Part shown: positions 19,687 to 53,080 of the stretch, in pieces
Layout of the letters: every line of letters begins with the position of its first letter
How positions within the stretch are numbered: the first letter of the stretch is position 1
DNA from: Candidatus Gottesmanbacteria bacterium GW2011_GWC1_43_10
GTDB lineage: Bacteria; Patescibacteriota; Microgenomatia; UBA10105
NCBI GenBank assembly: GCA_000995415.1
Contig: LCEX01000016.1
Location: 1-54,736, forward strand
DNA length: 54,736 nucleotides
Direction: 5' to 3'
The notes under the pieces: model-generated
Seen by the model: the letters and a program-made list of their open reading frames with translations, nothing else
Database searches by the model: none
What the model was told of the DNA's origin: nothing
Program-made: the position numbers and the translations under genes

Positions 19687-19779
19687 GGAGCCTGTTTGGA
19701 AACTCCCAACAATGTCATTCCGAGTCCCTTATTCACCGGGAAAGAAATGACAAAAAAGCTAATTTCCAAACAGACCATT
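19687..19779. repeat. MITE-like element, copy 1 (GAGCCTGTTTGG ends)
   Basis: The left arm GGAGCCTGTTTGGAAACT and the right arm AATTTCCAAACAGACC are imperfect inverse complements, with a short GTCATTCCG...AATGAC REP core between them. The same ends bound elements at 40401-40566 and 50530-50700. It lies just downstream of the S74 gene stop. Confidence 0.75.
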
Positions 19780-20296: not shown

Positions 20297-21064
20297 ATGA
20301 AATACGATCTGCGGGTTCCGATTCAATCGGGAAATTTACTGGAAGTAGTGCAGGATGTGCCGGAAAAAGGGATGCGTTTTCCGACGGTTTTACTAGTACC
20401 GGGATTTGGTATGGACTTACATGAGTCCGGCTATTTTGATCAGGCGAGTGATATTCTGGTCCGAAACGGGTTTCAGACATTTCGCTTTAGTTTCAGCGGC
20501 ACGGGCAAATCCCAAGGAAATTTCGTTGATATGACGCTCACTAAACAAGCGGATGAACTGCGGGAGGTATTAAAGAGCATTAAAACCGACAGATTCACCA
20601 ATCCCAGGAAAATCGGGATATTGGCCCAATCCTTTGGTTCGGTGGCGGCAATTGCTGCCCAGCCTTTGGCTGGAATCAAATCTTATGTTTTCACCAGTGC
20701 TCCGGCCGATCCGTACCAGTCTTTGGAAAAATGGTTTAAACGACAGCGTGGATACAACCCCGAGGGGATTTCGGAAATTGAACGTACTGATAAACGGATC
20801 ACTCGGGTGGGACGGGAGTTTTGGCAAAATTTAAAACAGCACGATTTATCAAAGCAAATGCAGCATATCAAGGAGCCCATCAAACTGATTTATGGGGGCA
20901 AAGATATCCGGATCAAACCCTGGGAATTTCAAGATTTATACGTGCATGCTTCCGGACGCAAAAATTTGGTAGTAGTGGAAAAGTCCAATCACGCATTTAC
21001 TGGTAAAGCGAGACCCGTGGTTTTAGCCTTGATTGCAGAATGGTTCAATGAAACTTTGCGCTAA
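20297..21064 (+). CDS. alpha/beta hydrolase
   Basis: A 255-residue serine hydrolase of the alpha/beta fold. VLLVPGFGMDLHESGYF forms the oxyanion-loop region, the nucleophile elbow is A-Q-S-F-G at about residue 120 (G-x-S-x-G variant with Ala first), the Asp region is YGGKDIRI and the His is in S-N-H-A-F. There is no signal peptide, so it acts in the cytoplasm, probably on an ester, thioester or peptide. The ATG at 20297 is chosen because it directly follows a TATAAT box and the upstream in-frame codons carry the promoter. Its stop overlaps the stop of the convergent ligase gene. Confidence 0.8.
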   Translation: MKYDLRVPIQSGNLLEVVQDVPEKGMRFPTVLLVPGFGMDLHESGYFDQASDILVRNGFQTFRFSFSGTGKSQGNFVDMTLTKQADELREVLKSIKTDRFTNPRKIGILAQSFGSVAAIAAQPLAGIKSYVFTSAPADPYQSLEKWFKRQRGYNPEGISEIERTDKRITRVGREFWQNLKQHDLSKQMQHIKEPIKLIYGGKDIRIKPWEFQDLYVHASGRKNLVVVEKSNHAFTGKARPVVLALIAEWFNETLR

Positions 21065-22086
21065 TGTTTTTTGGTTAGGTGATAGCGCTTACTTGCAGCT
21101 TCTAAAATAGCCAGTAGCATCGAATTGTATGAATATCCGGCAACTCGGGCAGCAATCGGAAAATAAGAAATGATATCTTCCCCCGGGATCAAACCCGGCA
21201 TAGTATTTATTTCGAGTACATGTGGTTTCCCATTTTTATCTAACCTGATATCGACACGTGCTACATCGCGGCAATTGAGGGCAGCAAATGTATCTTGGGA
21301 AATATTCTGTATCTCTTTTTCTAAATCAGGGTTCAACTTAGCTGGACAATCATAGGCGATACGGGGGTCAGACAACGTATCTTCCCACAGCCACTTGACT
21401 TCGTAAGAGGCAAATTTTTGCAAATTTGAAGGGAGGCGATCGAGTCTTTGTTCAATGATTGGTAAGGTTTGAGGCGGATTTCCCAAGAGAGCCACCGTAA
21501 ATTCACGACCGGGCAAAAATTCTTCGACCAACACTGGTTGGGAAAAGGCTTTAAATAACCAACGCAAGCGCTCACGCAGCTGTTTTTCATTTTTGACCAG
21601 ATTGGCATTTAAAATTCCTTTACTCGAGCCTTCAGCATTGGGTTTAAGTAAGAGCGGATATTGAAAATGAGAATTGATCGGTTCATTGGGACGGGAAAAT
21701 AACTGAAATTCGGGGGTGCGAATACCGTGATACAGTAGGACTTTTTTGGTGAGGGCTTTATCAAGTTTGATCGCATTGGTTAGGGCACTCGAATGGGTAT
21801 AGGGAATTTCCAAGATGTCGCAAAAAATTGGAACTTGAGCTTCTCTGGCATCACCATACATCCCTTCAGCGATATTAAAAACGATATCGAGACGGTTTTG
21901 TAGCTTATACAGTTTCAAATAGCATTCTTGGTCAGCCTCGATTTCAATGACTTTGTGGCCGCCACTTATAAGTGCAGCTTTGATCGCAGCGATGGTTTCT
22001 GGAGCATCATATTCGGCATCAGTTTGAGCCGTCGGGTCGGTGGAAGGCGCGTTGGTTTTGACGTTGAAACACAGGCCAATTACCAT
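21061..22086 (-). CDS. ddl: D-alanine--D-alanine ligase family (ATP-grasp)
   Basis: A 341-residue ATP-grasp enzyme laid out like Ddl: an N-terminal domain with F-N-I-A-E-G and REAQVPIFCDILEIPYTHS, a central ATP-binding part (KLDKALTKKVLL, PLLLKPNAEGSSKGI, VEEFLPGREFTVALLG) and the C-terminal metal/ligand loop RVDIRLDKNGKPHVLEINTMPGL. Ddl joins two D-alanines for peptidoglycan. In CPR genomes proteins of this type are often divergent, so another D-amino acid or small-acid substrate is possible. Minus-strand TATAGT ends 5 nt before the ATG, another leaderless-type start. Confidence 0.75.
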   Translation of the reverse strand: MVIGLCFNVKTNAPSTDPTAQTDAEYDAPETIAAIKAALISGGHKVIEIEADQECYLKLYKLQNRLDIVFNIAEGMYGDAREAQVPIFCDILEIPYTHSSALTNAIKLDKALTKKVLLYHGIRTPEFQLFSRPNEPINSHFQYPLLLKPNAEGSSKGILNANLVKNEKQLRERLRWLFKAFSQPVLVEEFLPGREFTVALLGNPPQTLPIIEQRLDRLPSNLQKFASYEVKWLWEDTLSDPRIAYDCPAKLNPDLEKEIQNISQDTFAALNCRDVARVDIRLDKNGKPHVLEINTMPGLIPGEDIISYFPIAARVAGYSYNSMLLAILEAASKRYHLTKKH

Positions 22087-22785: not shown

Positions 22786-23532
22786 ATGGACAAGACCATC
22801 TCCTTAACTATTAAAAACCTCTATGTATCTATCGAAGACAAAACCATACTTCACGGAATTGATTTAATTATCAAATCGAGAGAACTACATGTGGTGATGG
22901 GACCAAATGGCAGTGGCAAATCAACCTTGACTTATGCGCTGATGGGACACCCGAATTACAAGTTCAAAGATCAAAGTTCAAAGATCAAAGTAAATAATAC
23001 CCTAATTAATACATTAGCTCCTCATGAACGGGCAAAATTAGGTTTGATGTTGGCATTTCAAAACCCATTGGCCGTTCCCGGAGTGACTTTAGGTAGTTTT
23101 TTGCGAACTGCTTACCGGGAACTTTATAAAAATGAAAAAATAGACCTGATTTCCCTGCATAGGCAAATTCAACAAACCGCCAAAGACTTGCGTCTTGATG
23201 AAGCGTTTTTGAAGCGGGCAATCAACGATGGATTTTCCGGAGGCGAAAAGAAAAAAGCCGAGATGTTACAGCTCATTACCTTAAAACCCAAATTTGCGAT
23301 CTTTGATGAGATTGATACTGGACTTGATGTCGATGCTTTAAAATCTGTGGCAAATGGCATTGAGCTTTTGCAAAAACAAGGAACCGGGATTTTGCTGATC
23401 ACCCATTATCAACGGATATTAAATTATTTAAAACCCACTCATGTGCATATTATGAAATCGGGCAAATTGGTCAAAAGTGGCGGGGCAGAACTCGTCAAAA
23501 TAGTTGAGGCAAAAGGCTATGCAGACTTTTAG
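22786..23532 (+). CDS. sufC: SufC, Fe-S assembly ATPase
   Basis: A 248-residue ABC-type ATPase: Walker A G-P-N-G-S-G-K-S-T at about residues 40-48, Q-loop A-F-Q-N-P, signature F-S-G-G-E-K-K-K (the SufC variant), Walker B F-A-I-F-D-E-I-D and H-loop T-H-Y-Q-R. SufC powers the SufBCD scaffold that builds iron-sulphur clusters in the cytoplasm. A small tandem repeat (TTCAAAGATCAAAG twice, about 22967-22994) encodes part of the loop after Walker A. Its 3' end overlaps sufB by 14 bp, implying translational coupling. It is the first gene of the suf operon. Confidence 0.93.
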   Translation: MDKTISLTIKNLYVSIEDKTILHGIDLIIKSRELHVVMGPNGSGKSTLTYALMGHPNYKFKDQSSKIKVNNTLINTLAPHERAKLGLMLAFQNPLAVPGVTLGSFLRTAYRELYKNEKIDLISLHRQIQQTAKDLRLDEAFLKRAINDGFSGGEKKKAEMLQLITLKPKFAIFDEIDTGLDVDALKSVANGIELLQKQGTGILLITHYQRILNYLKPTHVHIMKSGKLVKSGGAELVKIVEAKGYADF

Positions 23533-25984
23533 CGGATTAGATAATTACAAATACGGGTTTAGTAAACCGGAAAACTATGTTTTCAAATCCAAAAAAGGGT
23601 TGGACGAGCGCGTGGTAGCCAATATTTCCTGGCATAAAAATGAGCCTGACTGGATGCGGCAGTTTAGGCTGAAGTCCTATCAAATTTTTTTAAATAAAAC
23701 TCTGCCGATTTGGGGAGGAGATTTGTCCCACATAAATTTCCAAGACATTTTTTATTATATAAAGCCAACAAAAGACAAAGCCGCCTCTTGGGAAGAATTG
23801 CCGCCGGAAATAAAAGATACTTACGACCGCATCGGCATGCCTGAGGCGGAGAAGAAATTTTTGGCCGGAGTTTCAGCCCAGTACGAAAGTGAAGTGGTAT
23901 ATAAAAGTATCCAAAAAACTTTATCCCAAAAAGGAGTCGTATTTTTGGATATGGATTCGGGGTTGCGCGAGTATCCGGAACTCGTTAAAAAATATTTTGG
24001 AACGATCATCCCTCCGGGAGATAATAAATTTTCAGCCCTAAATAGTGCCGTCTGGTCAGGCGGATCATTTATTTATGTACCAAAAGGGGTTCGTGTTGAA
24101 CTTCCTCTTCAAGCTTACTTCCGAATTAACGCCGCCAACATGGGTCAGTTTGAGCGAACATTAATTATCGCCGACGAAGGCAGTTACGTGCATTACGTGG
24201 AGGGATGTTTTCCTGCAGGCGAACAGATCAGTACCGGTGACCAATGGGTGAATATTGAAAGTATTAAACCAAAAGACTTAGTAGCAGATGACCAAGGGAA
24301 ATTACGAAGAGTAAAATCGGTGATGACTCGCCCCTACACCGGAGATCTGATCGAAGTGACCCCGATTTCCGCTTACAACAAATTTAGTTTAACTCCCGAG
24401 CATCCGGTTTTGGCTATTAAGCGTAGAGAAGTACTCGTAAAACGAAAGCAACGAAAAAATTGGCAAAGAGAAGTAAACTCAAAAATTCTGTTAAATGTAA
24501 AACCAAAATATCTTCCGGCACGTGAATTGGAAGTAGGCGATTTTATCATCTATCCCAAGATCAAAACAACTGCAAATGATTTGTGGTCCCGTGAAACAAT
24601 GCGACTATTGGGTTACTACTTGGCAGAAGGTTCAGCTTATATCCATAAGCAGTTGAAGATGCATATCGTCAGTTTCTCTCTAGGTGAAAATGAAACAGAG
24701 ATCATTGATGAGGTTACTCAATTAATTACAAAAACTACCGGTAAAAAACCTATGAAAATTTGGGATAAAAAAAAGCACGGCATGGAAATCAGAGTTTACT
24801 CCAAAGAACTTTACGAATTGTGTTTAAAAACATGTGGTAAAGGAGCTGCGACCAAAAAACTAAGTAAAGAAATCATGGAAGTTTCTGATGATCATGTTGA
24901 GCAATTGCTTCAAACTTACTTTTTAGGAGACGGAAATATCTGCAAAAAAGGCAGTAGCGTGATGTGTCGAGCAGCTACCGTATCAGAGCAACTGGCACGT
25001 CAACTTCAGGAACTGTTAGCCAGATTAGGAATGTATGCAAGTATTTTTATCCGCAAAGGCGGTAAAGATGTGATTGCCGGTAGAGTCATTACCAGGAAAG
25101 ACCAATTTATTATCGTTTATACCAAAAACAAGCGTATAGGCGAAGTCCGGGAAAGCCATGATTATTTTATTGTACCAGTCAAGTTAATAAGAAAAATTCC
25201 CTATACAGGTTTTGTATTCAATATGGAAGTTGCTGATACCAACTCTTATTTGGTACGCGGTTTTGCAGTCCACAATTGTACAGCCCCAATTTATACTACT
25301 GATTCTCTTCATTCGGCAGTGGTTGAGATCATTGTCAAAAAGGGCGCGCGGGTTCGTTACACTACGATTCAAAATTGGTCCACCAATGTTTACAATCTCG
25401 TTACCAAACGGATGCGCGTTGAGGAAGAAGGAATTGGGGAGTGGGTTGATGGGAATTTGGGTTCTAAGCTGACTATGAAATACCCGAGTGTATATTTAGT
25501 CGGGCGAAAAGCGCGAGGTGAAGTTTTATCTATCGCTTATGCCGGTCCGGGTCAACATCAGGATGCAGGTGGCAAAGCTATTCATTTGGCCTCAGAAACA
25601 ACATCTCGCATTACTTCAAAGTCTATTTCCAAAGGCGGGGGACGGACCTCTTATCGGGGACTACTGCATGTGATTCCTTCAGCTAAAAATGTGAAATCAA
25701 AAGTCGTTTGCGATGCGCTTCTACTTGATGAAACATCGCGTTCGGATACATATCCCACCATGAAGATCCACTCACAAGATGTGCAAATTGAACATGAAGC
25801 CACAGTTTCCAAAATTGGGGAAGAACAGCTCTTTTATTTACAGAGTCGAGGACTCACCAAGGAACTAGCAGAAGCCATGATTGTAAATGGTTTTATTGAG
25901 CCGATTGTCAAAGAACTTCCACTCGAATATGCGGTTGAAATGAATCGGCTAATTGAACTACAGATGGAAGGCAGTGTGGGGTAA
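23519..25984 (+). CDS. sufB: SufB with an in-frame intein
   Basis: The precursor has about 821 residues: N-extein 1-229, intein 230-586, C-extein 587-821, giving a 464-residue mature SufB, close to the family norm. SufB is the core scaffold of SufBCD. The C-extein carries the conserved beta-helix (KKGARVRYTTIQNWSTNVYN) and the HEATVSKIGEEQLFYLQSRGL terminal motif. The start at ATG 23519 overlaps the end of sufC; an in-frame ATG at 23504 would only lengthen the overlap. The intein splits Y-V-E-G-C-T-A-P-I-Y, so splicing is needed for active SufB. Confidence 0.92.
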   Translation: MQTFSGLDNYKYGFSKPENYVFKSKKGLDERVVANISWHKNEPDWMRQFRLKSYQIFLNKTLPIWGGDLSHINFQDIFYYIKPTKDKAASWEELPPEIKDTYDRIGMPEAEKKFLAGVSAQYESEVVYKSIQKTLSQKGVVFLDMDSGLREYPELVKKYFGTIIPPGDNKFSALNSAVWSGGSFIYVPKGVRVELPLQAYFRINAANMGQFERTLIIADEGSYVHYVEGCFPAGEQISTGDQWVNIESIKPKDLVADDQGKLRRVKSVMTRPYTGDLIEVTPISAYNKFSLTPEHPVLAIKRREVLVKRKQRKNWQREVNSKILLNVKPKYLPARELEVGDFIIYPKIKTTANDLWSRETMRLLGYYLAEGSAYIHKQLKMHIVSFSLGENETEIIDEVTQLITKTTGKKPMKIWDKKKHGMEIRVYSKELYELCLKTCGKGAATKKLSKEIMEVSDDHVEQLLQTYFLGDGNICKKGSSVMCRAATVSEQLARQLQELLARLGMYASIFIRKGGKDVIAGRVITRKDQFIIVYTKNKRIGEVRESHDYFIVPVKLIRKIPYTGFVFNMEVADTNSYLVRGFAVHNCTAPIYTTDSLHSAVVEIIVKKGARVRYTTIQNWSTNVYNLVTKRMRVEEEGIGEWVDGNLGSKLTMKYPSVYLVGRKARGEVLSIAYAGPGQHQDAGGKAIHLASETTSRITSKSISKGGGRTSYRGLLHVIPSAKNVKSKVVCDALLLDETSRSDTYPTMKIHSQDVQIEHEATVSKIGEEQLFYLQSRGLTKELAEAMIVNGFIEPIVKELPLEYAVEMNRLIELQMEGSVG
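24206..25276 (+). mobile_element. SufB intein with LAGLIDADG homing endonuclease
   Basis: A 357-residue protein intron. Block A starts with Cys1 (CFPAGEQISTGD), block B is L-T-P-E-H-P-V-L with the Thr/His pair, and block G ends V-R-G-F-A-V-H-N followed by Cys+1. Two LAGLIDADG-type helices are recognisable, LLGYYLAEGSAY and LQTYFLGDGNI, each keeping its acidic residue, so the endonuclease may still be active. Splicing residues are all present (Cys1, His-Asn, Cys+1). Confidence 0.92.
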
Positions 25985-43188: not shown

Positions 43189-43205
43189 GTAAAAAGGATA
43201 TGCAT

Positions 43206-43667
43206 ATGCCAAATCAATTTCTTCTCACAGCCGAAGGTTTGGAAAAAATTAAACAAGAGTTCGACTTGCTCGTAAACGGGAAACGGCCGGAATGCGTCAA
43301 ACGCGTAGCCGCAGCCCGGGAACAAGGCGACTTGTCAGAAAACAGCGAATACGCCGCAGCCCGGGAAGAGCTGTCATTTATCGATGGCCGGATTTTGGAA
43401 CTAGAAGAGATCATTCACAATGCCAAACTGATTTCCCACCAGCACTCCAAATCTGCTGTCGATATGGGTTGTCAGGTGACGCTACATGTTGATAGCCGAA
43501 AAGACGTTTTTACGATCGTCGGTGAATGGGAAGCCGATCCCAAACAGAAAAAGATCTCGCACTCCTCACCTCTGGGTAAGGCACTCATGGGTAAACGTGT
43601 TGGAGATGAAATTGAAGTACAGGCGCCGGCGGGTAAGCTACGATATAAAATACTACATATCGAATAA
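43206..43667 (+). CDS. greA: transcription elongation factor GreA
   Basis: 153 residues from ATG 43206 (an ATG two codons earlier at 43200 is also possible). The N-terminal coiled coil has R-E-Q-G-D-L-S-E-N-S-E-Y-x-A-A-R-E, whose Asp and Glu at the tip promote RNA cleavage by stalled RNA polymerase, and the C-terminal FKBP-like domain has SSPLGKALMGKRVGDEIEV. It rescues backtracked transcription complexes. AAAAAGGA precedes the start. It has its own promoter, an attenuator-like leader and a clear terminator, so it is monocistronic. Confidence 0.95.
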   Translation: MPNQFLLTAEGLEKIKQEFDLLVNGKRPECVKRVAAAREQGDLSENSEYAAAREELSFIDGRILELEEIIHNAKLISHQHSKSAVDMGCQVTLHVDSRKDVFTIVGEWEADPKQKKISHSSPLGKALMGKRVGDEIEVQAPAGKLRYKILHIE

Positions 43668-43684
43668 TTAGAAAAAATCCACCA

Positions 43685-43708
43685 AACCCGCGATCAGGCG
43701 GGTTTTTT
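43685..43708 (+). terminator. intrinsic terminator of greA
   Basis: Stem AACCCGC (43685-43691) / GCGGGTT (43698-43704), six-base loop, T6 at 43703-43708, 18 bp after the greA stop. Confidence 0.88.
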
Positions 43709-43718
43709 GGTATTACGT

Positions 43719-43724
43719 TATAAT
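43719..43724 (+). promoter_or_regulatory. TATAAT box upstream of lysS
   Basis: TATAAT ends 12 nt before the ATG at 43737, leaving a leader of only about 5 nt and no Shine-Dalgarno site. No strong -35 hexamer is found. Confidence 0.5.
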
Positions 43725-43736
43725 AGTATAAAACCT

Positions 43737-46076
43737 ATGTTCTGGGCTGATCGAATCGCAAAAACCATTATAGATTCTGGAAAGTATAAACCCTATTGGG
43801 TGGATGATATGAAGACGCCGTCAGGCAGGATTCATGTCGGTTCTCTTCGTGGCGTGATCATTCACGACTTGGTTTATAAAGCGTTACTTGATGCGGGGAA
43901 CAGTGCGACTTTTACTTATGTCTTTGAAGACCAGGATCCGATGGACGCCTTGCCGCATTATTTAGATGCAAACAAGTGGAGTCAGTATTTAGGCCAACCT
44001 CTTTTTACGATTCCTTCTCCGGATGATAAGGCTCCCAGTTTCGCGCATTTTTATGCCAATGAATTTCAGGAAGTATTTAATAAAATTGGGGCAACACCCC
44101 AGATTCTCTGGAGTGGTGATTTGTACCGTAGCGGACGGATGAATGAGGGAATCAAAACCTGTTTAGATAAAGTAGCCATTATTCGCGAAATTTACAACGA
44201 AACTTACAAAAAAAGAATGGCCGATGACTGGTATCCGTTTCAGGTGATGTGTCCCAAATGCCAGAAAGAATCAACCACCCGTGTGACTCATTGGGATGGC
44301 AAAGAAGTGACATTTGCTTGCAAAGTAGACGCAGTTGAGTGGACGCGCGGTTGCGGATTCAAAGGCAAAATTTCTCCATTTAGTGGAGGAGGCGAGTATC
44401 ACGGAAAACTTTCCTGGAAAGTGGAATGGCCGGTCAAATGGATGGTGATTGGAGTGACAGTTGAAGGAGCGGGTAAAGACCATATGAGTGCCGGTGGTTC
44501 ACATGACATTGCCAAATTGATTTGTGATCGGGTACTCCACTTCCCCGTTCCATATCCGGTCGCGTATGAATTTTTTTTGATTGGCGGCAAGAAAATGTCT
44601 TCGAGTAAAGGTTTGGGGTCATCTTCCAAAGAAGTTTCCGAGATTTTGCCGCCCTACTTACTCCGGTTTTTATTTACGCGAACTGATTTTAACCAAACAA
44701 TTGATTTTGATCCGGTTGTTAATATGTATATCCCGGATTTATTTGATGAATATGATCGGTGTTGGCAGGCATATATTGAAAATGGGGACGAGAATCTGGC
44801 GCGGGCATTTATACTAGCTCAAATTAGTAAGGTGCCCGATAAAGAAAAAATATTTATTCCGCGATTTAAGGATGTAGCCAATTACATCGAGCATCCAAAT
44901 GTTGATTTAAAACAAAAATTTGCAGAAATTAAAGGTTCGGTATTGACTGTCGCCGAAGAAAAAATATTGGCCGAACGTGAACAATACGCTCGGATTTGGA
45001 TCGGTAAATATGCCCCCCCAGAATACAAGATGCAAATGGTTAAGAAACTACCGGAACAAGTTGGGCATTTGACGGATGAGCAGAAAAAATATCTGGCAAA
45101 AATCGTGAGTTTGATTGAAGTAGATATGACTGCGGACAAATTGCAGTTAGCTCTTTATAATTTGGCAAAAGAATCACAGCTTGAAACTAAACAAGCTTTT
45201 GCTGCTATTTATACTGCATTTATTGGGAGCACTCATGGGCCCCGGGCTGCCTGGTTTTTGTTGCAATATCCCAAAGAACAGGTGATTGAGCGTCTCAAAG
45301 AAGCGAGCGTGGATTCTGGGCTTGCCTCGCCGACAGGCAGGCGCACTACGTTTGCCAGAATGACAACTAATTCAACAGTTCCGATAACTCAGCGACCCGA
45401 TTTATTTTCTATTTCAGATGACATAAAGATAAAATATCCTTCTATTTCAGTTGGTATTGCACTTATTAAAAATGTTCACATCGCAAAAACCAATCCGCAA
45501 CTAGAGTTGGAAAAGAAAGAACTCTTAGTCACTTTGCAGGCGTTAACTACCGAGCAACTCGGAAAATATCCAGAAGTTGTTAGTTATAGAAAACTGTACA
45601 AGGAAATGGGTATTGACTGGCATTCACGAAGACCTTCCCCTGAAGCACTGCTTAGACGAGTGGTACTCGGTAAAGGCTTATATACGGTTAACACCTGTGT
45701 CGATGCTTATAATTTAGTAGTGATGAAACATCGGGTGTCAGTGGGTGCATTTGATGCAGACAATATTAAGTTTCCCACTGTATTACGTTTTGCAGGGGAG
45801 GGTGATCAAATATTACTACTTGGCGATTCAGAACCAACAAAATATCATAGCTCTGAAATTACCTATTATGATGGGGAGGGTGGTTACAATATTGATTTCA
45901 ATTTTCGGGATGCGCAAAGAACTAAGGTGACAGAAAAAACTAAAAATTTGTGGATCAATGTCGATGGAGTGTTTGATATTACCCCCGAACAAGTATACCA
46001 GTCGCTTCAAGAATCAGTTGAGTTAATTACCAAATATTGCGGAGGAACTGTTGAAGTCATAGGAGTGGTGAAATAA
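43737..46076 (+). CDS. lysS: class I lysyl-tRNA synthetase fused to a B3/B4 editing-like domain
   Basis: 779 residues. About 1-524 is a class I (archaeal-type) LysRS: T-P-S-G-R-I-H-V-G (HIGH variant), a zinc-binding Cys cluster (M-C-P-K-C-Q-K and RGCGFKG) and K-M-S-S-S-K-G. About 565-779 matches the B3/B4 domain of PheRS beta and standalone editing proteins: YRKLYKEMGIDWHSRRPSPEALLRRVVLGKGLYTVNTCVDAYNLV is the hallmark region, with RTKVTEKTKNLWINVDGV further on. The two parts are joined by about 40 residues, of which about 19 are encoded by a REP-like element (45309-45366). It charges tRNA-Lys, and editing of mischarged tRNA by the C-terminal part is inferred. ATG 43737 is chosen because it matches the family start. 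Confidence 0.88.
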   Translation: MFWADRIAKTIIDSGKYKPYWVDDMKTPSGRIHVGSLRGVIIHDLVYKALLDAGNSATFTYVFEDQDPMDALPHYLDANKWSQYLGQPLFTIPSPDDKAPSFAHFYANEFQEVFNKIGATPQILWSGDLYRSGRMNEGIKTCLDKVAIIREIYNETYKKRMADDWYPFQVMCPKCQKESTTRVTHWDGKEVTFACKVDAVEWTRGCGFKGKISPFSGGGEYHGKLSWKVEWPVKWMVIGVTVEGAGKDHMSAGGSHDIAKLICDRVLHFPVPYPVAYEFFLIGGKKMSSSKGLGSSSKEVSEILPPYLLRFLFTRTDFNQTIDFDPVVNMYIPDLFDEYDRCWQAYIENGDENLARAFILAQISKVPDKEKIFIPRFKDVANYIEHPNVDLKQKFAEIKGSVLTVAEEKILAEREQYARIWIGKYAPPEYKMQMVKKLPEQVGHLTDEQKKYLAKIVSLIEVDMTADKLQLALYNLAKESQLETKQAFAAIYTAFIGSTHGPRAAWFLLQYPKEQVIERLKEASVDSGLASPTGRRTTFARMTTNSTVPITQRPDLFSISDDIKIKYPSISVGIALIKNVHIAKTNPQLELEKKELLVTLQALTTEQLGKYPEVVSYRKLYKEMGIDWHSRRPSPEALLRRVVLGKGLYTVNTCVDAYNLVVMKHRVSVGAFDADNIKFPTVLRFAGEGDQILLLGDSEPTKYHSSEITYYDGEGGYNIDFNFRDAQRTKVTEKTKNLWINVDGVFDITPEQVYQSLQESVELITKYCGGTVEVIGVVK
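45309..45366. repeat. REP-like element at the LysRS/B3-B4 junction
   Basis: GGATTCTGG ... CCAGAATGAC with a GCCTCGCCGACAGGCAGGC core, the same ends as the elements inside the acyl-CoA synthetase gene. It encodes V-D-S-G-L-A-S-P-T-G-R-R-T-T-F-A-R-M-T in frame. Confidence 0.75.
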
Positions 46077-46161
46077 TCAATAAACAACAGTATCGATACA
46101 AAAATACTAATGGATACTAATTAACCTGAGTTAAGAAATGAATGAAGCTAAATTACTCATT

Positions 46162-46234
46162 GTCATTCCCGACCTGATCGGGAATCTATAAAAATAAAGT
46201 ATTTAGCGGATTCCCAGCTTTTACCGGGAATGAC
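46162..46234. repeat. REP-like inverted repeat (GTCATTCCCG family)
   Basis: GTCATTCCCGACCTGATCGG... and ...TTACCGGGAATGAC form the outer arms, with a CCCGACCTGATCGGG hairpin. It lies between lysS and rdgB. Confidence 0.85.
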
Positions 46235-46297
46235 AAGTTATAATGACTAGAATAGTAACAACCCATTTCGTAACTCAAGCTATATTAACATCGATAC

Positions 46298-46915
46298 ATG
46301 AGCAAATTATTAATCGCCACTACCAACCCTGGTAAACTTGCAGAATTTAAACAATTTCTTGCAGATGTGCCAATTGAGATAGTTAGTCTTTCCGATGTAT
46401 CGATACATCGGAAACCTGAAGAAACTGGAAAAACATTTGAAGAGAACGCGATTTTAAAAGCCAATTTTTATCAAAAACTCACAGGACTTCCAACACTGGC
46501 TGATGATGGGGGATTTGAAATCGATGCATTGGATGGAGAACCTGGAATTAAATCCCACAGGTGGGTTAACCCAGAACGGGAAAGCAGTGATGAGGAATTA
46601 ATTACATACACCATAAAACGACTAACCGGAATTCCCCTGGACCAGCGCGGAGCCAAACTGCGTTTAGTATTGGCTCTAGTTTTATCAGATGGAAACACAC
46701 ATACTGTAGAAGCAAAAATTAGGGGAATTGTTCCCCTCAAACCAGGAACACATCGGACTGAAGGATTTCCTTATCGTTCACTCCTGTTTTTGCCGGAAAT
46801 AAACAAATTCTATGATAAACAGTTGCTTACTGTAGCTGAAAACGAGCAGTACAATCACCGCAAAAAGGCAGTAGAACAACTAAAACCTATTATTGACAGA
46901 TTATTGACAAGCTAG
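46298..46915 (+). CDS. rdgB: RdgB/HAM1-type non-canonical purine NTP pyrophosphatase
   Basis: 205 residues: the signature start L-L-I-A-T-T-N-P-G-K-L-A-E-F (S/T-x-N-x-x-K), ETGKTFEENAILKA, A-D-D-G-G-F-E-I-D-A-L-D-G-E-P-G-I and a C-terminal part with R-T-E-G-F-P-Y-R. It hydrolyses dITP, XTP and similar nucleotides to protect DNA. A TATATT box (46281-46286) ends 11 nt before the ATG, another short-leader start. The promoter of the next transcript begins inside its last codons. Confidence 0.9.
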   Translation: MSKLLIATTNPGKLAEFKQFLADVPIEIVSLSDVSIHRKPEETGKTFEENAILKANFYQKLTGLPTLADDGGFEIDALDGEPGIKSHRWVNPERESSDEELITYTIKRLTGIPLDQRGAKLRLVLALVLSDGNTHTVEAKIRGIVPLKPGTHRTEGFPYRSLLFLPEINKFYDKQLLTVAENEQYNHRKKAVEQLKPIIDRLLTS

Positions 46916-46931
46916 AAAATAGACGTATACT
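46904..46931 (+). promoter_or_regulatory. promoter TTGACA-N16-TATACT of the structured leader
   Basis: TTGACA (46904-46909) lies in the last codons of rdgB and TATACT at 46926-46931, with a 16-bp spacer. The predicted start is about 46938. Confidence 0.8.
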
Positions 46932-46937
46932 ATATGA

Positions 46938-47112
46938 AGGATAGAACAAGCGTTTGAGACAGCTTCCAACTGTCGATGCTTCCCGATAGACCTTATTATT
47001 TTAAATAAATCGGGACGGGAGAGTCCGTAATAACTCAAATTAAGTATTGTTAGGGTGGCATCTTTCCGACTTAGTCGGGACCATAACACGCATATAGTAT
47101 GCGTGTTTTTTT
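46938..47112 (+). ncRNA. structured leader RNA, candidate T-box (serine type)
   Basis: About 175 nt from a strong promoter to an intrinsic terminator. Predicted parts: hairpin AAGC...GACAG-CTTCCAA-CTGTC...GCTT, hairpin CCCGAT...ATCGGG, hairpin GGAC/GTCC, then an antiterminator-like element. In that element lower helix GTTAGGG (47049-47055) / CCATAAC (47081-47087) and upper helix TTCCGAC (47064-47070) / GTCGGGA (47074-47080) flank a 7-nt bulge TGGCATC (47056-47062). The T-box bulge consensus is UGGNACC, so six of seven match, and N = C would pair with the G73 of tRNA-Ser. The loop CTTCCAA contains TCC, a Ser codon. Canonical Stem I features are not clear, and the overlap with the terminator stem is only three bases, so the call is tentative. 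Confidence 0.4.
47086..47112 (+). terminator. intrinsic terminator just before the phosphatase gene
   Basis: Stem ACACGCATA (47086-47094) / TATGCGTGT (47098-47106), three-base loop, T7 ending at 47112, only 8 nt before ATG 47121. The downstream genes can be read only by passing this terminator or from an unseen promoter. Confidence 0.88.
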
Positions 47113-47120
47113 ATAGAAGT

Positions 47121-47759
47121 ATGACAAAAATTTATTTAGTCAGACATGGAGAATCTGTTGCCAATACCCAAGGAATTTATCAAGGTATTACATATAATAC
47201 ACCTTTATCTGATCTTGGGAGTCAACAAGCACGAGCACTAGCTGGGCGCTTTCAAAACACGACCATCAGCAAAATAATCGCCAGCCCACTTGAACGAACT
47301 CACCAAACGGCAAGTATTGTGGGTTCTTCTAAACAAATAAATATTGAAATAGAAAAAAATATTATTGAAACCAATCATGGACTTTGGGAAGGAGAACATA
47401 AAAATACTATTGCCCAAAATTGGCCTGATCTTTATAAAAAATGGCAAAAATTTCCATCAGGGGTCCAATTTCCTGACGGCGAACATTTTTTAGATACCCA
47501 AAAACGGGTTTTGAATTGGTGGAAGAAAGTTGTCTCCGATAACTCGCATAATTTATTGGTCGTGTCTCACGATAATATTATTCGGATCATCATTGCCAAA
47601 GTTTTGAATATGAAACTCAACCGGATCTGGAAGTTTCATTTACATCCGACAGCGGTGACAGTCATTGATGTTGAAGCCGGCAATGCAGGTTTGGTTGATC
47701 TAAATAATGCCAGTCATCTAGGGAATTTACAAACCAATCTTGCATTACATGCATTGTAA
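47121..47759 (+). CDS. histidine phosphatase (phosphoglycerate-mutase-like)
   Basis: 212 residues of the histidine phosphatase superfamily: L-V-R-H-G-E-S-V-A-N at the start (phospho-His), P-L-S-D-L-G-x-Q-Q-A-x-A-L, A-S-P-L-E-R-T-x-Q-T-A, E-T-N-H-G-L-W-E-G (proton donor) and V-V-S-H-D-N-I-I-R. Related enzymes act on 3-phosphoserine, alpha-ribazole phosphate or sugar phosphates. Its place directly ahead of serS, after a possible serine T-box, makes phosphoserine phosphatase attractive, but this is inference. The start at 47121 fits the family and lies 8 nt after the terminator. Confidence 0.82.
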   Translation: MTKIYLVRHGESVANTQGIYQGITYNTPLSDLGSQQARALAGRFQNTTISKIIASPLERTHQTASIVGSSKQINIEIEKNIIETNHGLWEGEHKNTIAQNWPDLYKKWQKFPSGVQFPDGEHFLDTQKRVLNWWKKVVSDNSHNLLVVSHDNIIRIIIAKVLNMKLNRIWKFHLHPTAVTVIDVEAGNAGLVDLNNASHLGNLQTNLALHAL

Positions 47760-47812
47760 ATGTATGCTTGTCGTGATTAATGTTTGAGCGAAGTGAGAAC
47801 TGACGCATTTGT

Positions 47813-47872
47813 GTCATTCCCGCGCAGGCGGGAATCCATTTGTATAGATCCCCGATCGGAGTCGGGGATGAC
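47813..47872. repeat. REP-like repeat between phosphatase and serS
   Basis: GTCATTCCCGCGCAGGCGGG ... CCCGATCGGAGTCGGGGATGAC; two hairpins of the GTCATTCCCG family. Confidence 0.8.
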
Positions 47873-47905
47873 AATATTTTTAACTTCGTTCTAGGAGTAA
47901 ATAAT

Positions 47906-49183
47906 ATGTTAGACATCAAATTTATCCGGGACAATTTAGAACTTTGTAAAAATGCTGCCAAAAATAAAAATCGGGTAGTGGAGTGGGAAAAATTATTACA
48001 ACTTGACGACAGACGGCGAGAACTGATTAGGCAAGTTGAAACACTTAGAGCAGAAAGAAATGAAATTAGTTCACAGTCTGCAGTTTCGGCCAAAGGCCGA
48101 TCCGCCTTTGGCGGACGAAGTTCGCAGTTAAGAGGAAAAGAAATAAAAGGCGAGTTGAAAAAGCTGGAAGAAGAGTTGCGAACTGTTGAACAGGAATTTA
48201 CCCAACTCATGTACACCGTTCCCAATGTGCCTGACAAAAGCGTTCCGGTGGGAAAAGATAGCACCGGCAATGTGGAGATCAAAAAATGGGGGGAACCGAC
48301 AAAATTTTCTTTCAAGCCAAAAGACCATATCCAACTCGCAAAAGAATTAGATCTTATTGATTTTGAACGCGGGGTAAAAGTTGGTGGGTACCGGGCTTAT
48401 TTCCTCAAAAATGAAGCCGCACTTTTGGAAATGGCGATACTTATGTACGCCTATCAAAAGTTAGTTAAAAAAGGCTATATACCCCTCATTGCTCCGAGTA
48501 TATTAAATGAATTTACACTTTTTGGCATTGGACAATTTCCGTGGGGGAGAGAAGAAGTATATCATTTGGAAAAAGATGATAAATATTTGGCTGGCACGGC
48601 CGAACAACCGGTCACCGCTTATTTTGCAAATGAAATTCTAAATGAAAAAGATCTACCCAAAAAGTTTGTGGCTTTTTCTCCCTGTTTCCGGCGTGAAGCC
48701 GGCAGTTATGGAAAAGATACTAAAGGCGCATACCGCGTGCATCAATTTAACAAAATTGAGCAAGTGATCATTTCCACAAACGACATGAGTAAATCCTTTG
48801 AGCTGCATGAAGAGTTGTTACGAAATTCTGAAGAAATTTTACAAGATCTCAAACTACCATATCGCGTGTTACTTATGTGTACCGGTGACATGGGCGAGCC
48901 CCAGGTAAAAAAATATGATGTCGAAACCTGGATGCCCAGTCGCGTGGCGTATGGTGAAACGATGTCAAATTCGGTCATGGGTGATTTCCAAACCAGAAGA
49001 CTGAAAATCCGTTATCGCACAAAAGACGGCCAAACTCTTTTTTGCCACTCATTAAATAATACCGCAATTGCCTCACCGCGGATTCTTATACCCATTTTAG
49101 AAAATTATCAAAATTCAGATGGATCTGTGACAATCCCTGAAGTGCTTAGGCTATACTTAGGCAAAGACAAGATTTCGCGATGA
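47906..49183 (+). CDS. serS: seryl-tRNA synthetase with a repeat-encoded insert in the tRNA arm
   Basis: 425 residues: MLDIKFIRDNLE start, N-terminal coiled-coil arm (about 30-110) and the class II core with TAEQPVTAYFANEILNEKDLPKKFVAFSPCFRREAGSYG (motif 2), HQFNKIEQV, and E-T-M-S-N-S-V-M-G-D-F-Q-T-R-R-L and NNTAIASPRILIPILENYQ (motif 3). It charges tRNA-Ser. Residues about 61-70 (A-K-G-R-S-A-F-G-G-R) come from two adjacent palindromes (48087-48115) placed near the tip of the arm that grips tRNA-Ser. TAGGAG lies upstream of ATG 47906. Its TGA overlaps the next ATG (ATGA). Confidence 0.95.
   Translation: MLDIKFIRDNLELCKNAAKNKNRVVEWEKLLQLDDRRRELIRQVETLRAERNEISSQSAVSAKGRSAFGGRSSQLRGKEIKGELKKLEEELRTVEQEFTQLMYTVPNVPDKSVPVGKDSTGNVEIKKWGEPTKFSFKPKDHIQLAKELDLIDFERGVKVGGYRAYFLKNEAALLEMAILMYAYQKLVKKGYIPLIAPSILNEFTLFGIGQFPWGREEVYHLEKDDKYLAGTAEQPVTAYFANEILNEKDLPKKFVAFSPCFRREAGSYGKDTKGAYRVHQFNKIEQVIISTNDMSKSFELHEELLRNSEEILQDLKLPYRVLLMCTGDMGEPQVKKYDVETWMPSRVAYGETMSNSVMGDFQTRRLKIRYRTKDGQTLFCHSLNNTAIASPRILIPILENYQNSDGSVTIPEVLRLYLGKDKISR
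48087..48115. repeat. paired palindromes inside serS
   Basis: CGGCCAAAGGCCG (48087-48099) and TCCGCCTTTGGCGGA (48101-48115) lie in frame within the region coding the tRNA-binding coiled coil. Confidence 0.85.
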
Positions 49184-50544
49184 AAATAAAGGTGAAAGTT
49201 GTTATTACGGAAGCGGGTTTTGACGTTTATTTAAACCAACACCCCCACCAGGTAAGTTACCCCAAACCAATTTGGCAAGCTTTCCCCCAAAAACTTAAAT
49301 TACCTTTTGCCGAATTTGTGGCATTTATGACGACAGTTCCCAAGGCTTTTACAAACTCAACCAATATTGAGTATCAATTTCCGCGGCCGATTGCAGAATC
49401 ATTTTTTTATTTTGGTCTACTACTTTCACAACCTGAAAACCTGATCGATTTTTCGGGTTGGAAAACTTCAGATTATTTGCGCCAGGTTATGAATAGTTTT
49501 TACAAGATTTCATTTACCGGCCAAACTCGCGAAATTATTACAGACGTAAGTTATACACCTGATAAACAATCAGCGATCGTTCCGTTTACATTTGGTAAAG
49601 ACAGTTTATTGACCTTTGGTTTGTGTCAGGAAATGGGTTTGAAACCTATTCCGATTTTTATGCTAGAGCCAACTAATTTGTACGAAAATAAATTAAAGCA
49701 AAAATTGCTGGCCCAATTTATCAAAGAATTTAAACAGCCGATCTATACGTTTCCGGTGCCACTAGCCCAACTTAAACAAACGCGGGGCAAGTGGTGGGGT
49801 TGGGATATTTTTCTGACCCAATATACGATATTTTTACTTCCATTTTTGTATACGCACAAAGCCAATTATTTATTTTGGTCCAATGAAAGCAATTGCAATG
49901 AAGTAGTTTCGGATTCCGAAGGATTTATGGTTAACGCAACTTTTGAACAGTCAACTAAGTGGATGCAAGTTCTCTCATCCGGTTTGAGACTATTTGGCGT
50001 AAACGCCAAGCTTGGGAGTTTGCTTGAACCTTTGACGGAGATCGGGATTTTATCCATGTTGCATCGTTATTATCCTGATTTGGGCCGATACCAAACTTCT
50101 TGCTTAAATGACGAACCAATATCAGCTACCAAACGTTGGTGTGGTAAATGTTATGAATGTGCCCGGGTATATATTTCTTTATTGGCACTTCGGATTGATC
50201 CGCGCCGGGTCGGGTTTGATGTAGATATGCTTAGGAGATCCAAACGCCACTTGTATTACATTTTTGCAAAAACTCAGGATGATTTGCATAACAAGTTTAC
50301 ATTTACACGAAATGAAAAATTATTTGCATTTTTCTTAGCTTACAAAAATGGTAATCGCGGAAAACTGATGGACGAATTCAAAACGCGATTTTTGAAAAAT
50401 GTCAAAGCAAAACAAAAACATTACCGACATTTATATCTGGGAACATCGTCAACTCAAACTATCCCTGAAGAATTAAAATCCCGAGTGCACCGGCTCTACT
50501 CCCAAAGACTCGACCAAATAAAAAAAGACTTAGAGCCTGTTTGA
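49180..50544 (+). CDS. PP-loop ATPase of the MurL/QueC-like type, copy A
   Basis: 454 residues. The PP-loop is P-F-T-F-G-K-D-S-L-L at about residues 134-143 (S-G-G-K-D-S-type). F-W-S-N-E-S-N-C-N-E, a phenylalanine/Glu-rich F-E-Q-S-T-K-W motif and SLLEPLTEIGI follow. A Cys site is at about 307-328 (T-S-C, then W-C-G-K-C-Y-E-C). From memory this order matches MurL, the ATP-dependent UDP-MurNAc-L-Ala-L-Glu epimerase, and less closely QueC. Such enzymes split ATP to AMP and pyrophosphate. Its ATG overlaps the serS stop, so it is translationally coupled to serS. Its last codons and TGA lie inside the 50530 inverted-repeat element. Confidence 0.6.
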   Translation: MKIKVKVVITEAGFDVYLNQHPHQVSYPKPIWQAFPQKLKLPFAEFVAFMTTVPKAFTNSTNIEYQFPRPIAESFFYFGLLLSQPENLIDFSGWKTSDYLRQVMNSFYKISFTGQTREIITDVSYTPDKQSAIVPFTFGKDSLLTFGLCQEMGLKPIPIFMLEPTNLYENKLKQKLLAQFIKEFKQPIYTFPVPLAQLKQTRGKWWGWDIFLTQYTIFLLPFLYTHKANYLFWSNESNCNEVVSDSEGFMVNATFEQSTKWMQVLSSGLRLFGVNAKLGSLLEPLTEIGILSMLHRYYPDLGRYQTSCLNDEPISATKRWCGKCYECARVYISLLALRIDPRRVGFDVDMLRRSKRHLYYIFAKTQDDLHNKFTFTRNEKLFAFFLAYKNGNRGKLMDEFKTRFLKNVKAKQKHYRHLYLGTSSTQTIPEELKSRVHRLYSQRLDQIKKDLEPV

Positions 50545-50700
50545 GAAGTCCATATTTGGCTATAATTGCCCACATTTGGCTAAAAACCATTCACCGTTCG
50601 TCACTGTATCTAGTCTCGATACAGCTCCTCACGCTTCATGGTTTTTACCTCGAACTTGGACAATTCTATCTCAAAAGAGACTTTTCAAACAGGCTCTTAA
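50530..50700. repeat. MITE-like element, copy 3, between the convergent PP-loop genes
   Basis: Left TTAGAGCCTGTTTGAGAAGT (50530-), right GACTTTTCAAACAGGCTCTT (to 50699). The left end supplies the last codons and TGA of copy A (50542-50544), and the right end supplies the TAA of copy B (50697-50699). Confidence 0.9.
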
Positions 50701-52157
50701 ACTAAATCAGCCAGTTCCTGATGATAGATTCGAAGCACCTTTGCTCTGAAGGCTTTGGGAATAGTTTTGGTAGAGTGGATACCAAAAAAACGCTTGCGAA
50801 AAGCCCGTTCATTTTTGGTGGCATATTTGATGTATTTACGGACAAACAATGACATAAGAGGTCCTTTGACTCCGCGTTTATAAGCCAGAAAGTACGCAAA
50901 AATTTGTTCATCTTTACCAGCCTGGCTTTGGTCATAACCATATTCTTTGATCCTTGTCGAACTAAAAATAGAATAGAGATGTTGGTATTTAGCAGCCAAC
51001 AACTGGTGAGTGAAACCGACAGTTTTGGGATCAATCCCCAACCCCAAAAGGAAAATATAAATCCGGCCGCACTTGGAGCAATTTTCGCACCAGCGGTTAT
51101 CGCCCTCGGGTCGGTATTCCAGATCACAGGAGCTTTGATATTTAGCGATGTCCGGATAGCGGGAATGTAGGATTTTTTCTATCGCGATTTCGTAAAGCGG
51201 TTCAAGGAGTGTCCCGATAGACAAAGAGTTACCTCCGACGATGCTTGTCATCAGTGAATTCTGCAGTAGCCATTCATGTGATTGTTCATACACCGGATTG
51301 CAGCGAAAACCATCTGGATCCACAATTGTGTCATCACAACTTTGTTCATTGGAAAAAAGGATATAACCGGCGCGTTTGGCATAAACATAAGGCAGGAGCA
51401 TCAGTGAATAATGAGTAAGTTGCAGTTCCCAGCCAAACCAGCCCGATGGTTCACGCAAAACTCCGAGAGTATTTTTGAGGAATGCCAATTTGATTTTGAA
51501 TTCCTTGCGGAAAGGGATAGCCAGTAGTTTTTTGATGACTGCCTCATATGGATAATCAGGTTCGGAGATAAAGACGGGATTGACCGTAAGTCCCAACTCG
51601 CGAGCCAGAGCAAAAGTGAGTAGGCTGTCTTTGCCAAAAGTGAAAGGCATGATGATGTGGTCTGAAAGGCTGGTGCGATTGTACGGCGGAATATCTGTTT
51701 TTTGATTGGAAAATAAGTAGTCCACATCATACAACCGGCGCAGTAAATTGGAGGTAAGCTTTTTATCTTTTTCTGACTGCATGATAGCAGTTGCAGGTAA
51801 AGACAGCGAAAATGCCTTAAATAGAAACGATTCCGATAGTGGTACGGGTAAGTTGTAAGACATTTTTTTAAGCGACGTAAATATATATGGCAGATGAAAT
51901 GTCAGACCAAATGTGATATTTTGGGCTAGGATTTTACGCTGAATTTTAGGAAATCTTTGCCAAACTCCGGGCGGGTAATGCAGACTAAAAGTTTTGTTGT
52001 TGATTTTGACCTGGATACCGCGGTCTACTACTTGAGTTGAAATCTCCGCCAGCCCATTGACTTTTATTTTAGGAAAAGTATTTTTGGGTGGGGTGATATT
52101 TATTTGCGGCAAATCAGCGATTGGAACTGTCGACAAGAGGTTGAGATTTTGATTCAT
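50697..52157 (-). CDS. PP-loop ATPase of the MurL/QueC-like type, copy B
   Basis: 486 residues, a clear paralogue of copy A along its full length: P-F-T-F-G-K-D-S-L-L-T at about 172, L-F-S-N-E-Q-S-C-D-D, Y-E-Q-S-H-E-W, G-T-L-L-E-P-L-Y-E-I-A and S-S-C-D then W-C-E-N-C-S-K-C-G-R-I at about 342-365. The N-terminal 110 residues are predicted beta-rich. It presumably uses ATP in the same way; whether the pair works as a heterodimer or on two related substrates is unknown. It is transcribed towards copy A and ends in the same repeat element. GTTTTGACATAATAAATA lies near its upstream side (about 52150-52175). Confidence 0.6.
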   Translation of the reverse strand: MNQNLNLLSTVPIADLPQINITPPKNTFPKIKVNGLAEISTQVVDRGIQVKINNKTFSLHYPPGVWQRFPKIQRKILAQNITFGLTFHLPYIFTSLKKMSYNLPVPLSESFLFKAFSLSLPATAIMQSEKDKKLTSNLLRRLYDVDYLFSNQKTDIPPYNRTSLSDHIIMPFTFGKDSLLTFALARELGLTVNPVFISEPDYPYEAVIKKLLAIPFRKEFKIKLAFLKNTLGVLREPSGWFGWELQLTHYSLMLLPYVYAKRAGYILFSNEQSCDDTIVDPDGFRCNPVYEQSHEWLLQNSLMTSIVGGNSLSIGTLLEPLYEIAIEKILHSRYPDIAKYQSSCDLEYRPEGDNRWCENCSKCGRIYIFLLGLGIDPKTVGFTHQLLAAKYQHLYSIFSSTRIKEYGYDQSQAGKDEQIFAYFLAYKRGVKGPLMSLFVRKYIKYATKNERAFRKRFFGIHSTKTIPKAFRAKVLRIYHQELADLV

Positions 52158-52263
52158 GTTTTGACATAATAAATACAGCTTGTTAATTCATCATACGATC
52201 TTTGTTAGTCTTGTCAAGTAAACTTTTGGATCGGACTGTACCGAAGCCATCAATTGAACAGAT

Positions 52264-52899
52264 ATGAATTTATTATCGTTATTTTTTCCGCAAAAAATTG
52301 CAGTATACAAATCAAAATACAACTCCGAAATCAAAGTCTACGAATTTTTGGGAAGAAAATATATCGAAGTCGGAAGACTCATGCAGTCAGGAAACATGGT
52401 AAAGCAGTTATTTAGTCAGATGCTCAAAAAATTTCATTTGCAACATCAACCATACATTAAACGCATTTTGGTACTAGGTTTAGGTGGCGGTTCGGTGGTA
52501 GAGCTACTAAATAAAACTTATCCCGAAGCAGAAATCACAGCCATTGAAATTGATCCGATGATGGTTCAAGCGGGTAGAAAATATTTACAACTTGGTAAGA
52601 GCAGGCGTCTTAAAATAATTTTTGCCGATGTGTTCAAGCTGCCGAGGAGTAAAATAAAATATGATTTAGTAATAGTAGATTTGTTTCGGGGAGAAGAGAC
52701 TCCGGCGCAACTTGGGGAGCCAAGCTTTTTGCGATATCTGAAAAGCTTGACTACAGAACAGGGATGTATCGTTTTTAACCGCCTGTATTTCCAAAAACAC
52801 ATTTTTGAAGCCAACCAATTTCTTAACAAACTTGAGGGCATCTTTCAGCATGTAGATACAACGAAGGTTTACTTCAATCTATTCATCAAAGCCTGTTGA
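52264..52899 (+). CDS. spermidine-synthase-like SAM-dependent transferase
   Basis: 211 residues with a Rossmann-like SAM-binding core: ILVLGLGGGSVVELLNK (glycine loop), A-I-E-I-D-P-M-M-V-Q-A-G-R (acidic residue for the ribose) and Y-D-L-V-I-V-D-L-F-R-G. This is the spermidine-synthase/polyamine-aminopropyltransferase-like fold. The beta-hairpin N-terminal domain is reduced and the catalytic Asp region D-L-F-R-G differs from the usual D-x-x-D-P, so methyl transfer is as likely as aminopropyl transfer. It is divergent from PP-loop copy B, about 105 bp away. Confidence 0.7.
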   Translation: MNLLSLFFPQKIAVYKSKYNSEIKVYEFLGRKYIEVGRLMQSGNMVKQLFSQMLKKFHLQHQPYIKRILVLGLGGGSVVELLNKTYPEAEITAIEIDPMMVQAGRKYLQLGKSRRLKIIFADVFKLPRSKIKYDLVIVDLFRGEETPAQLGEPSFLRYLKSLTTEQGCIVFNRLYFQKHIFEANQFLNKLEGIFQHVDTTKVYFNLFIKAC

Positions 52900-52930: not shown

Positions 52931-53080
52931 CCTCACAGCTCGCGGCGTAATTGTCATTCCCACCCCGTATGTCATTCCCGCGAAGGCGGGAATCTGCGGG
53001 GTAAACTCCAGCGGGAATCTATAAGATCCTCGCGACCCAAGTCGGAGATGACAGGATACCTCGCAGCGTGCCGCGAGGAG
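52931..53080. repeat. REP cluster
   Basis: Outer CCTCACAGCTCGCGG / CCGCGAGG arms enclose two GTCATTCCC starts (about 52952 and 52971), a CCCGCGAAGGCGGG hairpin and a GATGAC end. It lies between the convergent spermidine-synthase-like and GT39 genes. Confidence 0.75.

Follow-up and report, generated by a model that had tools for sequence, protein, structure and literature searches.

Two convergent, paralogous genes in a 54,736-nucleotide stretch of Candidatus Gottesmanbacteria bacterium GW2011_GWC1_43_10 (contig LCEX01000016.1, the whole stretch being referred to here as the window) encode zinc-site PP-loop ATP pyrophosphatases of the MurL/QatC/QueC superfamily. We use the working name MURLX for the unnamed family that comprises these proteins, A and B, and their relatives. 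A and B probably help to build a small peptide, since their relatives, even those in organisms without a bacterial cell wall, are encoded next to peptide-joining enzymes. By analogy with MurL, we tentatively propose as the likeliest activity that MURLX proteins take a peptide made by a ligase, adenylate its carboxylate and then invert the residue so activated. An initial annotation of the window had suggested two MurL/QueC-like paralogues and a possible uncharacterised pathway; the family and the idea of a pathway were borne out, but a role in peptidoglycan D-Glu or in queuosine was not. The source genome is 1.42 Mb in size and 94% complete. L-numbers below denote individual MURLX (or murL) loci and G-numbers genomes.

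Family membership and predicted fold

Both genes are complete open reading frames (ORFs) with products 38% identical over their length, and the motifs FTFGKDSLLTF, SNE, LLEPL and W-C-x2-C-x2-C occur in identical order in A and B; the coordinates, the orientation and every motif given initially were confirmed. The MurL model NF041275 of NCBIfam was the sole named match, with 25 bits for A (E 4.6e-6) and 36 bits for B (E 2.8e-9). These scores are below the curated cut-off of 700 bits, although canonical MurL proteins of Candidate Phyla Radiation (CPR) bacteria encoded beside murD also reach only 234-354 bits. When 77 MURLX relatives were compared with eight MurL proteins using hhalign, homology was found over 306 columns covering the PP-loop core and the four-cysteine (Cys4) site (probability 99.6, E 2.3e-24). 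MurL is thus the nearest named family, as had been proposed. Pfam and PHROGs returned nothing significant for A or B, and the QueC family PF06508 was unmatched at E 1. PADLOC, including its QueC and QatC models, gave no match for either protein, and a sequence search of the PDB found nothing significant.

Twelve positions were invariant in 77 of 77 relatives, including G175, K176, S178, E271, C344, W356, C357, C360 and C363 of B, and P106 was likewise invariant. The PP-loop Lys and Ser are therefore retained throughout these relatives, while the Asp can be replaced by Glu. Most invariant MURLX positions are also found in MurL. The Cys4 spacing in A and B is C-x12-C-x2-C-x2-C.

The AlphaFold model of B had a mean predicted local distance difference test score (pLDDT) of 91.5 and a predicted template modelling score (pTM) of 0.92; the values for A were 82.6 and 0.86. 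In Foldseek searches the best matches to the model of B were QatC, QueC and Cap9, and the model of A matched QueC and Cap9 at E about 0.003-0.005. The predicted fold of A and B is thus QatC/QueC/Cap9-like, which upholds the QueC-like core and zinc-like site recognised initially.

In a phylogenetic tree, MurL stood apart on a long stem and MURLX formed a separate clade. B fell into a tight clade of 12 sequences and A into a clade of eight, whose terminal branches are about 0.1-0.8 changes per column long, in most cases at least 0.5. All eight A-type genes lie tail-to-tail with a B-type gene, the only arrangement in which they were found, and have retained the active-site motifs. Of the two paralogues, A evolves fast and B is the conserved copy, located in a conserved block with the gene for a short spermidine-synthase-like protein (SPEE). 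A supposed pseudogene copy of A in G188 was rejected, since the ORF is complete in L088 and the reported stops fall beyond it. In G016, B appears split only because the record contains masked bases (N).

Distribution and gene neighbours

At E 1e-20, 26 of the 280 genomes from the class contained MURLX. Scanning GTDB genomes yielded 71 loci from many CPR lineages, in line with the earlier expectation that the pathway would occur in other CPR genomes, and from DPANN archaea. The archaeal groups represented were Woesearchaeota, Aenigmatarchaeota, Micrarchaeota, Nanoarchaeota, Diapherotrites and Altiarchaeales, and no Mur ligase match was found in seven of the 11 archaeal genomes having MURLX. A few loci came from Spirochaetes, deltaproteobacteria and Chitinispirillaceae. 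Single occurrences may reflect binning errors in metagenome-assembled genomes; for example, L082 is labelled Brocadia and has a CPR-type locus.

The most frequent partner was a D-Ala-D-Ala-ligase (Ddl)-like ATP-grasp gene, found no more than three genes away in 29 of the 71 loci, 26 of which have both genes on one strand; in 24 loci it directly adjoins MURLX. With three such genes per thousand, chance alone would give about 0.4 adjacencies, a figure that serves as a guide since the loci are related. The association reappears in many phyla and with varied gene orders, and some of the adjacent ligases are fusions of about 800 aa that combine an L-amino-acid-ligase (LAL)-type half with a Ddl-type half. 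A CPR operon has the order LAL/Ddl fusion, MURLX, dipeptide epimerase, DegT-like, ATP-grasp and LysA-like. Other neighbours in the 71 loci were L-Ala-D/L-Glu-epimerase-like (7), LysA-like decarboxylase (7), a second ATP-grasp (6), DegT-like (5, a label assigned by eye without a model match), lysine-2,3-aminomutase-like (4) and FemAB-like (4) genes. In L096, MURLX is beside a MurL-type gene, a Ddl-like gene and a lysine-2,3-aminomutase-like gene, and in L104 it overlaps a DgcN-like gene. An E1/ThiF-like adenylating enzyme is encoded directly downstream of MURLX in Aenigmatarchaeota (L101, 7944-8888, and L103).

The features of the window are listed in Table 1. The translational coupling of A to serS that had been noted initially is real: the serS stop and the ATG of A overlap as ATGA at 49180-49183, and the same coupling recurs in L094 and L098. 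SPEE matched the Pfam Spermine_synth family above its cut-off (E 2.9e-10) and stayed below the curated scores for spermidine synthases (38.6 bits against 249.6 for speE; 64.8 against 304 for PRK04457, E 6e-18). The divergent pairing of SPEE with B described before is conserved, SPEE holding the same position in nine loci including the window, but the far commoner Ddl-like ATP-grasp partner had been missed. Since the gene order in L095 is GreA-LysS-HD-SerS-MURLX-Ddl-SPEE-SecA, the block at 43200-52899 of the window represents the same neighborhood, in which A stands where L095 has the Ddl-like gene.

Table 1. Location of the MURLX genes and associated features in the window
Feature	Coordinates	Strand	Evidence	Remarks
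serS (seryl-tRNA synthetase)	47906..49183	+		stop overlaps A start
Protein A, MURLX, 454 aa	49180..50544	+	ORF call, NCBIfam, alignment, AlphaFold	PP-loop G139-K140-D141-S142; E236; Q257; Cys4 site C308/C321/C324/C327
MITE-like element, 166 bp	50532..50697	.		between A and B stops; 41-nt imperfect terminal inverted repeats
Protein B, MURLX, 486 aa	50697..52157	-	ORF call, NCBIfam, AlphaFold, Foldseek	PP-loop G175-K176-D177-S178; N270-E271; Q292; Cys4 site C344/C357/C360/C363
SPEE, spermidine-synthase-like, SAM (S-adenosylmethionine)-binding, 211 aa	52264..52899	+	PF01564	divergent from B
D-Ala-D-Ala-ligase-like ATP-grasp	21061..22086	-	PF07478, 9.1e-34	possible MURLX partner, unlinked here

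The source genome has two Ddl-like ligases, both located away from A and B, one in the window (Table 1) and the other on contig C25. The former is 47-49% identical to the ligases adjoining MURLX in L114, L112 and L096 and scored below every curated Ddl cut-off listed. Ligases of this type (type 1) were present in 13 of 26 genomes of the class with MURLX versus 23 of 254 without (odds ratio 10, Fisher p 1e-6, with no correction for kinship).

Proposed activity and alternative explanations

MurL needs ATP and Mg2+, yields AMP and runs only from L to D (PMC5808125, PMC8788868), inverting the terminal Glu (PMC5808125). On this model, the substrate of MURLX would be a small peptide, or a peptide end, made by Ddl-like or LAL-like ATP-grasp enzymes. 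ATP would be split to AMP and pyrophosphate with adenylation of the peptide carboxylate, and the activated residue would be inverted at its alpha carbon and released, turning an L-residue inserted by the ligase into a D-residue. The gene appears to have been duplicated in the source lineage, and A, with its active site kept, probably handles a second residue or substrate.

Several findings weigh against this model. Residues invariant in the eight CPR MurL proteins (e.g. H219, H264, K268 and R295) are not kept in MURLX, which has mostly W, P, Q and E at those columns, and the second half-reaction may therefore differ from that of MurL. An enolase-type dipeptide epimerase is already present in some MURLX operons, where a second epimerase could be redundant. 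The solved relatives in the fold search, QueC and Cap9, form amides or nitriles instead; the same core serves such chemistry in QueC, in Cap9 and probably in QatC (PMC13329287, PMC13279940). Furthermore, the Ddl-like gene in the window is about 27 kb from A and B, and type 1 ligases also occur in genomes without MURLX, as given above.

The predicted fold, the missing MurL-specific residues and the resident epimerase also favor an amide-forming PP-loop ligase, in which the adenylated peptide carboxylate would be passed to an amine and not inverted. Candidate amines would be ammonia, a diamine produced by the LysA-like decarboxylase, a polyamine from SPEE (whose role is likewise putative) or a protein N-terminus as in Cap9, and genes that could supply amines recur near MURLX (LysA-like, SPEE and lysine-2,3-aminomutase-like, counted above). 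We regard this activity as the main rival to inversion, possible but less likely, considering that MurL is the nearest family by sequence, that the Pfam and PADLOC models for QueC and QatC were not matched, and that the ten genomes searched rule out a 7-deazaguanine acyl donor, giving only weak PP-loop matches to QueC (<30 bits) and no PTPS/QueD. Because QueC and QueD are absent, a queuosine or deazaguanine role was rejected, and with it the QueC-like nucleotide chemistry envisaged initially. An anti-phage role was also rejected, as A and B had no PADLOC match and no relatives were found in viral contigs.

Returning to inversion, a broader route can be imagined in which Ddl-like ligases would first join L-amino acids and MURLX, here as a dedicated pair, would later invert them with ATP. 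In some CPR bacteria without alanine racemase the product would be D-Ala-D-Ala, and in DPANN archaea a different peptide, either soluble or on the surface; taken as a whole, this scheme seems improbable to us. A more specific version, modelled on the handling of D-Glu by MurD2/MurL, holds that A, B and the Ddl-like ligase form a D-Ala-D-Ala route without alanine racemase, each of the two L-residues being inverted by one paralogue. Two genomes, G000 and G003 (the latter a single contig), encode a MurF-like protein, a type 1 Ddl-like protein and the A/B pair and have neither Ala_racemase_C nor a canonical Ddl, and the co-occurrence of MURLX with type 1 ligases points in the same direction. However, alanine racemase is also missing from 12 of 12 tested CPR genomes without MURLX, five tested genomes carry both MURLX and alanine racemase, G016 has the A/B pair and no Ddl-like match at all, and D-Ala-D-Ala for murein is of no use to the archaeal members, all of which makes this version very doubtful. 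A simple correlation in which MURLX replaces alanine racemase was not supported among the tested genomes. Ala_racemase_C was found in only five of 33 CPR genomes, and MurF-model matches, many of them strong, in 25 of 25 CPR genomes tested.

The supply of D-Glu was evaluated separately. The source genome encodes a canonical MurL (253 bits), followed immediately downstream by a MurD scoring above the MurD cut-off, and the same pair was found in seven other genomes of the class, eight in all (G000:C19:2986-5717, which is L028; L029; L157-L162). D182 and K348 of E. coli MurD (numbered without Met1) and their Glu/Arg counterparts in MurD2 control the handedness of Glu (PMC8788868). The source-genome MurD has E and R at these columns, as in the L-Glu-using MurD2; across the eight murL-adjacent MurD proteins, E was found in six and R, at a K348 column read from the alignment, in all eight. 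Given the separate murL-murD operon and this MurD, the MurD2/MurL route probably supplies D-Glu with no contribution from A or B. No MurI was recognised in the source genome, where the only Asp/Glu racemase-family protein scored as asp_race/CuyB-like. CPR bacteria are not part of the published MurD2/MurL distribution in the literature searched. That A and B are extra MurL enzymes supplying D-Glu for peptidoglycan, as the initial annotation allowed, is suggested by their homology to MurL and the lack of a recognised MurI but is most improbable, for the genome has its own murL-murD operon, MURLX is a separate clade never found beside murD in the gene maps made here (murD adjoining canonical murL in eight genomes), and archaea without Mur ligases have MURLX.

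Other features of the window and comparison with known systems

The structured leader upstream of serS reported initially folds well (z -3.5). Its main hairpin is the palindrome ATTCCCGCGCAGGCGGGAATCC, which is dispersed, occurring at 47816-47837 and 52974-52995; because it recurs at 52974, the hairpin is a repeat and not evidence of regulation. No Rfam family was matched, and a riboswitch upstream of serS was rejected. The element between A and B contributes the last codons of A, and ends similar to its own occur at 19688 and 40549; it looks like a miniature inverted-repeat transposable element (MITE) that has inserted at a site where, in relatives, the 3' ends of the two genes usually overlap slightly. 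A SufB-like ORF of 826 aa at 23504-25984 contains an apparent intein, with an insert starting after '..YVEGC' and ending '..VHNC'. The syntenic slot beside GreA holds two apparently unrelated types of lysyl-tRNA synthetase (43707-46076 in the window; L080 and L089 versus L081, L084, L087 and L088), class I-like in the window and class II-like in relatives.

MURLX is an unnamed enzyme family, and its probable small-peptide pathway would be common to CPR bacteria and DPANN archaea. It lies between MurL, an ATP-driven epimerase that is itself poorly understood, and QueC-like proteins that modify proteins in phage defense, so that a solved member would shed light on both. It is also relevant to the supply of D-amino acids in wall-making CPR bacteria, several of which appear to have an active MurD2/MurL route and most of which, among the genomes tested, are missing alanine racemase. 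In the literature searched, no account was found of the peptide-ligase and epimerase genes described above combined with one for a MurL-like protein.

Compared with known systems, MURLX shares with MurL the GK[DE]S PP-loop, the NE motif and a C-terminal E in the same order over about 300 residues, as well as W-C-x2-C-x2-C with an upstream Cys. Unlike MurL, it is encoded next to ATP-grasp peptide ligases rather than murD, occurs alongside a true murL in the source genome, and is a separate clade scoring 25-36 bits against the cut-off of 700 and lacking several MurL-invariant residues. The QueC-family proteins QatC (qatABCD) and Cap9 (type IV CBASS, cyclic-oligonucleotide-based anti-phage signaling system) have the same PP-loop core and Cys zinc site and are the best structural matches, and QatC also has N- and C-terminal extensions and a similar overall length (9y01_B, E 6e-5, 449 columns). 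In contrast, their identity with MURLX is about 12-16%, PADLOC and QueC models were not matched, and no qat genes were recognised near A and B and no qat or CBASS neighbors were seen. The zinc site of QueC, C(x)8CxxCxxC, has a layout similar to that of A and B, in which the first spacer is longer. Ligase-based peptide pathways (LAL/BacD-type ATP-grasp, Ddl and dipeptide epimerase) resemble the MURLX neighborhoods, where the ligases have PF07478 and LAL_C2 and the dipeptide epimerase matches the model of the Thermotoga L-Ala-D/L-Glu epimerase at 1.3e-61.

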